DNA of 64,000 nt, taken from the NCBI GenBank assembly GCA_030603495.1, contig JAUVXR010000004.1, positions 65,996-129,995 of the forward strand. The letters run 5' to 3'. Of this stretch, positions 12,367 through 13,436 are shown one piece after another. The translations under genes were made by a program, and so were the position numbers. The first letter of the stretch is position 1, and each line of letters starts with the position of its first letter. Under the pieces are notes generated by a model. It was given only the letters and a program-made list of their open reading frames with translations. It made no database searches and was not told the origin of the DNA. Source of the DNA: a bacterium. Its GTDB lineage: Bacteria; Armatimonadota; Zipacnadia; Zipacnadales; Zipacnadaceae.

Positions 12367-12745
12367 ATGACGGGGCCGCACCACGGGCATATGACTCCGA
12401 ATCCGAGGCGCTGCTCCAGGCCATCAAGGTCGGTCACGGCCTGCGCGCGCAGGCTATCGCTGATGGGGACACCGTTGTGGGCAACGAGCTAATCGCGCTC
12501 AACGCCGGCATGGTCAGGTACTGGCAGTATCCCAGCAGCGCGCCCTGCTGCGCTTCTGGGTCGGACGCAAGTGTGTGGATATGGCTGTCGGGCGCTTTGC
12601 GCTGCCGTAGACTCGCTAACCGCCTGAGATATTCTGCCTCAAAAAAAAGCCGTGAGATGGTGCCAGAAGAAGGAGGAGGCAACCCTTTTGGCGAAGAATA
12701 GAATAATCATGGCGTGAAAACTGTGAAGGGAAGGAGCTCATTAGT
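12367..12745. other. No recognisable gene
   Basis: A plus-strand frame (12360-12701) is open and starts with readable codons (ESEALLQAIKVGHGLRAQAI). It then degenerates into cysteine- and arginine-rich sequence, matches nothing I know, and lacks a ribosome binding site. An A8 run lies at about 12641-12648. It may be a decayed gene. Confidence 0.4.
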
Positions 12746-13051
12746 ATGGCTGACGCAGTTCTGATGGTGACCACCAAGGGCTATGGCAAGGTCGTATCGC
12801 CTACCGAGTTCAAGCAGCAGAAGCGCGGAGGGAAGGGAATCATTGGCTTCAAGGTAACCGAGGACAGTGGTCCGGTCGCTGCCACCGCGCATGTTGTACT
12901 CGGCGAGGGAGAGCGAGTACTCGTTACGACTGCTAGGGGCCGGGCGATAATGACCCCGGTGGACGACATCTCCGTACGCAGCCGGACCGCGGGCGGTGTG
13001 AAGATAATTGATGTGGCCGACGGCGACGGTGTAATCTCGGTCATCATCTAG
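12746..13051 (+). CDS. Free-standing GyrA beta-pinwheel protein with a GyrA box
   Basis: 101 residues that correspond to about two blades of the DNA gyrase A C-terminal beta-pinwheel. The opening is MVTTKGYGKVVSPTEFKQ, then QKRGGKGIIGFKV, which contains the GyrA box (consensus QRRGGKG) needed for DNA wrapping. It continues with ERVLVTTARGRAIMTPVDDI and RSRTAGGVKIIDV. The gene has its own start and a strong GGAAGGAG box (about 12728-12735). It is therefore a designed small protein rather than the tail of a cut gyrA; no other gyrA sequence adjoins. A role in DNA binding or gyrase modulation is inference. It could also be a decayed gyrA/parC duplicate. Confidence 0.8.
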   Translation: MADAVLMVTTKGYGKVVSPTEFKQQKRGGKGIIGFKVTEDSGPVAATAHVVLGEGERVLVTTARGRAIMTPVDDISVRSRTAGGVKIIDVADGDGVISVII

Positions 13052-13147
13052 GCGCATCATTCTGCTGACTCCCCACTCCCGCAGGTGTGCGCTGGATTCC
13101 CCCGCGCGGCCGCCTCGTCGCCGGGGGAGGCCCTTATTGTATCAATC

Positions 13148-13177
13148 GGTCGCAGTCGCCTTCGGGCGGCTGCGGCC
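13148..13177. terminator. Very stable UUCG-loop hairpin
   Basis: GGTCGCAGTCGCC (13148-13160) pairs over 13 bp, with G-U pairs, to GGCGGCTGCGGCC (13165-13177) around a TTCG tetraloop. No clear U tract follows. It lies between the GyrA-box gene and the next promoter and probably ends that transcript. Confidence 0.5.
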
Positions 13178-13269: not shown

Positions 13270-13298
13270 TTGCAGTATTGCCCGAACTAGGATATAGT
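13270..13298 (+). promoter_or_regulatory. Promoter of the homocitrate-synthase-like gene
   Basis: TTGCAG (13270-13275), a 17 bp spacer and TATAGT (13293-13298). It implies a leader of about 130 nt before the ATG at 13437. Confidence 0.5.
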
Positions 13299-13436
13299 AT
13301 TACTCGTCGAACAGGTCTTGGCTACTAACGCCGCGAGCTGGGTGCCAGTTGAGGCCGACAGCGTTGCGGCGTCATATTAGTGGTGTGGCCGTTGGCTAAT
13401 GATGCTGCAGATTGGCTGCGTTTTAGGAGGAGTATC

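Follow-up and report, generated by a model that had tools for sequence, protein, structure and literature searches.

The window (the whole stretch of 64,000 nucleotides that was analysed) carries, at positions 12746..13051 of the forward strand, a free-standing gene for a two-blade beta-pinwheel protein (101 aa plus stop, ATG start). The gene and its length are conserved under purifying selection, the product is kin to blades 5-6 of the GyrA C-terminal domain, and a separate, full-length GyrA is encoded in the same genome. The fold is predicted. We tentatively propose, at somewhat short of an even chance, that the two-blade subunit, probably expressed from its own transcription unit, closes as a trimer and serves gyrase or the nucleoid as a DNA-binding or DNA-bending accessory.

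Gene and domain composition

The start codon is preceded, at a distance of 9 nt, by the Shine-Dalgarno sequence AAGGAG (12731..12736; on the + strand, like the gene, its repeats and loops and the hairpin at 13098..13129). In the profile search the ORF matches PF03989, the GyrA C-terminal repeat, in two stretches with 76.5 bits against a cut-off of 27 (E 1e-21), which is far beyond chance. Repeat 1 (12746..12901, approximately residues 1-52) is the equivalent of GyrA blade 5, as judged from the structural match and the blade-pair trees, and repeat 2 (12902..13048, approximately residues 53-101) is the equivalent of blade 6, as judged from the PF03989 profile and the structural match. PF03989 is the sole domain in the 101 aa: the catalytic N-terminal breakage-reunion domain is missing, and in place of the six-blade tail with a blade-1 GyrA box that characterizes GyrA, there are two repeats resembling blades 5-6. 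The NCBIfam profiles for gyrA (62.5 bits, cut-off 877) and parC (18.9 bits, cut-off 628.9) stay below their thresholds. In a phmmer search of the PDB with the window protein, GyrA C-terminal domains come out on top, followed by ParC tails.

The window genome (2.67 Mb, 62 contigs, 93.5% complete) has its closest named relatives among the Ca. Zipacnadia and WS1 genomes of the phylum Armatimonadota; the class of Ca. Zipacnadia was described from marine sediments (PMC10290634). Its own GyrA (830 aa) is encoded on contig C5 and contains six PF03989 blades, the only other PF03989 stretches of the genome, with VQHRGGRG as the blade-1 box. The two-blade gene is found on contig C24, with no operon in common. 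The first-pass annotation, which had described a 101-residue ORF with a ribosome binding site, about two pinwheel blades and no attachment to gyrA, is therefore borne out in these respects. It had also advised a survey of the genome for full gyrA and parC genes. Besides the GyrA on C5 no further type IIA A-subunit is detected with PF00521 in the window genome, and the same search across the class relatives (G000-G045) revealed no separate ParC. The gyrA frames are split in two of the relatives.

Predicted structure and blade identity

The AlphaFold2 model of the monomer (pLDDT 95.6) predicts a beta-pinwheel blade fold. In the VIA-align superposition the whole chain falls on residues 740-838 of the Salmonella Typhi/E. 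coli GyrA, i.e. on blades 5-6 (Z 15.9, 1.4 Å over 99 residues), and not on blade 1, the seat of the true GyrA box; the structures 5ztj, 1zi0 and 3l6v are matched at Z ~15-16. In the tree of GyrA blade pairs and stand-alone proteins the window family forms one clade, located within or next to blades 5-6. It appears closer to the Rhodobacteraceae-type GyrA than to the GyrA of its own genome, a biased detail, as the outgroups were fetched with a family-derived motif. Tree and structure agree that the protein corresponds to GyrA blades 5-6.

This assignment bears on the QKRGGKG loop (12818..12838, residues 25-31), in which the GyrA box needed for DNA wrapping had been recognized at first pass. The letters are present, but, since tree and structure place the protein at blades 5-6, they belong to a blade-5-equivalent loop, and the exact consensus Q(R/K)RGG(R/K)G is limited to the window protein and close relatives (G001, G004, G005, G006 and G013), so that the loop is not to be read as the blade-1 wrapping motif. 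Other members of the family have RGGGG, RGTKG, RGSKG or other variants at this position, and only R-G-x-x-G is kept. The blade-6-equivalent loop, RSRTAGGVK, is located at 12977..13003 (residues 78-86).

Both loops contain an arginine with a counterpart in Salmonella GyrA: R27 aligns with R766 of blade 5 and R80 with R817 of blade 6, and the alanine mutants of these two residues bind DNA more weakly (PMC7210945). R27 is present in 28 of 29 sequences (the remaining one has K) and R80 is invariant (29/29), within a strongly conserved surrounding (R27-G-x-x-G31; R80, G83-G84-V85-K86). The net charge of the family is near zero (-5 to +4), whereas GyrA blade pairs average ~+4 to +6, which makes strong non-specific DNA binding doubtful.

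In the model of the GyrA tail of the same genome (pLDDT 84.7) blades 2-6 are predicted to have short strand-C stretches, which are missing from blade 1. When the two-blade protein is modeled by itself, the strand-C stretch of repeat 1 likewise stays unpaired, whereas blade 5 within the GyrA tail forms a short strand at that place. Neighboring pinwheel blades are linked by hairpin invasion (PMC3797127); the lack of a paired strand C in repeat 1 and of strand C in GyrA blade 1 fits such an arrangement and points to open edges at both ends of the two-repeat chain.

Distribution and conservation

The stand-alone gene is found in 30 of the 46 class genomes (the window genome and 45 of its class), with one further copy outside the class, in a genome from another part of Armatimonadota (G066). 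Copies are placed deep within long contigs, e.g. C13 of G024 (240 kb) and C11 of G041 (227 kb). The orthologues are 98-104 aa long (the 98-aa copy is truncated at a contig end) and share the start, the length and, wherever upstream DNA could be inspected, a Shine-Dalgarno-like site; their alignment (n=28, 107 columns) has 13 invariant positions. The dN/dS values are 0.03-0.22 (Nei-Gojobori, 25 closest pairs), meaning that the orthologues evolve under purifying selection. Homologues of similar length and a test of dN/dS were what the first-pass annotation had asked for, and both support a genuine gene; homologues existing solely as recent gyrA fragments, with neither a conserved start nor a conserved length, would have spoken against its reading, and those found have both.

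A decaying gyrA fragment or an assembly artefact would account for the high similarity to part of GyrA, in genomes that are metagenome-assembled, but is hardly credible for a gene whose length and start are conserved in 29 sequences, whose dN/dS is far below 1, and whose orthologues lie within long contigs and form a separate clade in the blade tree. A gyrase fragment or pseudogene is ruled out by the conserved length, the dN/dS values and the separate complete gyrA.

Sixteen of the 46 class genomes, several of them nearly complete, yielded no copy of the gene, which is thus dispensable. None of the searched members of families f2, f9 and f10 or of genus g4 has it, the gene having been lost there or never gained; single absences are weak evidence, since the metagenome-assembled genomes of many relatives are incomplete. 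In the rest of the phylum the matches listed for the family profile are full gyrA genes, besides the two families described below. A scan of genome contigs with the motif RSR[TS]AGGVK (best 80 loci) gave, outside the phylum, short relatives only at a contig edge; for a scope of one motif scan, distant stand-alone relatives may still exist there. The GyrA on a contig titled Enemella evansiae (L109, Actinomycetota) clusters with those of Rhodobacteraceae, probably owing to contamination. A mobile-element origin was considered and rejected: the three phage and ten plasmid matches are weak (31-48% identity) and some are annotated as gyrA, none of the viral contigs codes for a relative, and the records of a Planococcus plasmid and a fecal phage have no annotation at the matching position.

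Further two-blade families

A search started from G054 revealed more stand-alone two-blade proteins elsewhere in the phylum (97-106 aa overall), which form two families, SA2 and SA3. SA2 (98-106 aa) is present in G054 and G117-G120. SA3 is present in seven of the eight f38 genomes (G247-G253; L196, L197, L198), one of which is a single-contig genome; the other six proteins are 69-93% identical to the query, and the three that were read have 97 aa each. In the tree SA2 is nearest to GyrA blades 1-2 and SA3 to blades 3-4, with weak support; one clade of all three two-blade families is not rejected by the AU test (p 0.07), though the tree splits them. Nothing hints more strongly at two blades being the functional unit than the recurrence of the two-blade length. 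A broader proposal, in which free-standing two-blade pinwheels originated repeatedly within the phylum, from different pairs of GyrA blades, assemble as three-fold six-bladed rings and wrap DNA without a topoisomerase, as a new class of nucleoid proteins, is unlikely.

Gene neighborhood and transcription

In close relatives the gene is preceded by a sigma factor gene and followed by homocitrate-synthase-like, M42 peptidase and glmS-like genes, while in other families the neighbors differ. The comparison of synteny that had been suggested along with the search for homologues gives, in consequence, a gene order common to close relatives only, and a conserved operon was rejected on the same grounds.

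Between the gene and the next one there are two G+C-rich hairpins (13098-13175), followed by promoter-like sequence, an arrangement kept in five close relatives, and the gene is therefore probably transcribed alone, as its own unit. The hairpin 3' of the stop codon (13098..13129), which is kept in an alignment of five species, is a possible transcript end. No T-run terminator was detected 3' of the gene in the terminator scan, the folding is only mildly better than that of shuffled sequences (z -1.9 for 13049-13140 and -0.74 for 13085-13150), and no known Rfam element was found around the gene, the hairpins included. The promoter-like sequence, TTGCAG-17-TATAGT (13270-13298), is conserved and precedes the homocitrate-synthase-like gene at 13380.

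The SA2 genes are located in an operon-like run (L193:2190-6437, L194, L192) with genes for a TPR protein, a dihydrolipoyl dehydrogenase, two lone response-regulator receivers and a 2,4-diaminopentanoate-dehydrogenase-like protein. Such company, in particular the receivers and the dihydrolipoyl dehydrogenase, together with the shifting neighborhoods that contain metabolic genes and the low net charge, would suit a stable two-blade module with a role away from DNA, whose binding partner would be a small ligand, RNA or another protein, and in which the DNA-related residues are kept to hold the blade together. The strong conservation is found, however, in the perimeter loops that face DNA in GyrA, and we consider this explanation improbable.

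Possible assembly and function

According to the proposed mechanism, the protein would go back to the final blade pair of a GyrA C-terminal domain. In a pinwheel every repeat contributes a hairpin to the blade that follows, so a two-repeat chain would be left with two unmatched edges: no earlier blade supplies repeat 1 with a hairpin, and the hairpin of repeat 2 has no later blade to invade. The chains could close these edges on one another, most simply as a homotrimer, in which 3 x 2 blades would give a six-blade ring of 303 aa, as large as one GyrA tail. Such a trimer would display three of the box-like loops and, along its perimeter, six arginines, and the ring would assist gyrase or the nucleoid by binding or bending DNA.

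The trimeric, DNA-contacting ring is favored because two-blade trimers have precedents and because in gyrase the box loop closes the ring. The chain of the Ralstonia solanacearum lectin consists of two blades. The lectin is described as a trimeric propeller (PMC11883740), and the designed two-blade chains of Pizza2 close into a six-blade trimer (PMC7337062). Both resemble the window protein in chain length (~90-100 aa) and in the 3 x 2 blade arithmetic, the trimer being putative in our case, but they are true propellers and not pinwheels with hairpin invasion, and there is no sequence relation. In gyrase, the ring is closed by the GyrA-box loop, which connects blade 1 with blade 6, and the same loop shapes the DNA that is bound (PMC3510516). 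Against the trimer, AlphaFold2 folds the monomer confidently, so the prediction requires no oligomer, and blade 1 of the predicted GyrA tail also lacks strand C, so an unmatched edge is no proof of a partner.

The protein may instead act on gyrase directly, by docking where the GyrA tail has a free blade edge or a gap (blade 1/blade 6) or by joining mixed rings, and so shift wrapping and the balance of supercoiling and decatenation. Descent from the same domain and compatible blade edges would allow this, a near-zero charge suits a protein-protein role better than DNA wrapping, and, as no separate ParC accompanies the one type IIA A-subunit seen in the class, gyrase must also decatenate and could need tuning. 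On the other hand, the gene is far from gyrA and shares no operon with it, the class members without the gene likewise have a single GyrA, and the identity of the family to blades 5-6 of the GyrA of its own genome is only 31%, the interface being putative. Direct action on gyrase is thus rather unlikely, though the low charge, the confident monomer and the patchy presence lend some weight to the rivals of the trimeric ring, and most to this one.

Compared with the GyrA tail, the window protein has the same sequence family and predicted fold and the equivalent loop arginines, but it is free-standing, has two blades instead of six, no catalytic part and a lower net charge, and its box-like motif is in another loop. 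The GyrA C-terminal domain of Borrelia burgdorferi is reportedly made independently as a DNA-binding protein, as a whole six-blade tail from within gyrA. It likewise represents GyrA tail material without the rest of gyrase, whereas here a separate two-blade gene exists beside an intact gyrA. The Borrelia burgdorferi domain partly compensates for the loss of HU in E. coli (PMC6113365). A small accessory DNA-bending role, as proposed for the window protein, would also be like that of HU/IHF (PF00216), which has an unrelated fold; the HU gene is detected in 42 of the 46 class genomes, the window genome included, and the protein is not an obvious HU substitute.

In general, the DNA-wrapping tail is known from gyrase, as part of a six-bladed domain on a large enzyme, and the gene described here is a natural two-blade version, kept separately over long evolutionary time. 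The protein would offer a minimal system for the fewest blades needed for DNA wrapping, for pinwheel assembly from separate chains by hairpin exchange, and for the evolution of repeat rings. In bacteria in which only one type IIA topoisomerase was found, it may also be regarded as a candidate accessory of gyrase or the nucleoid.
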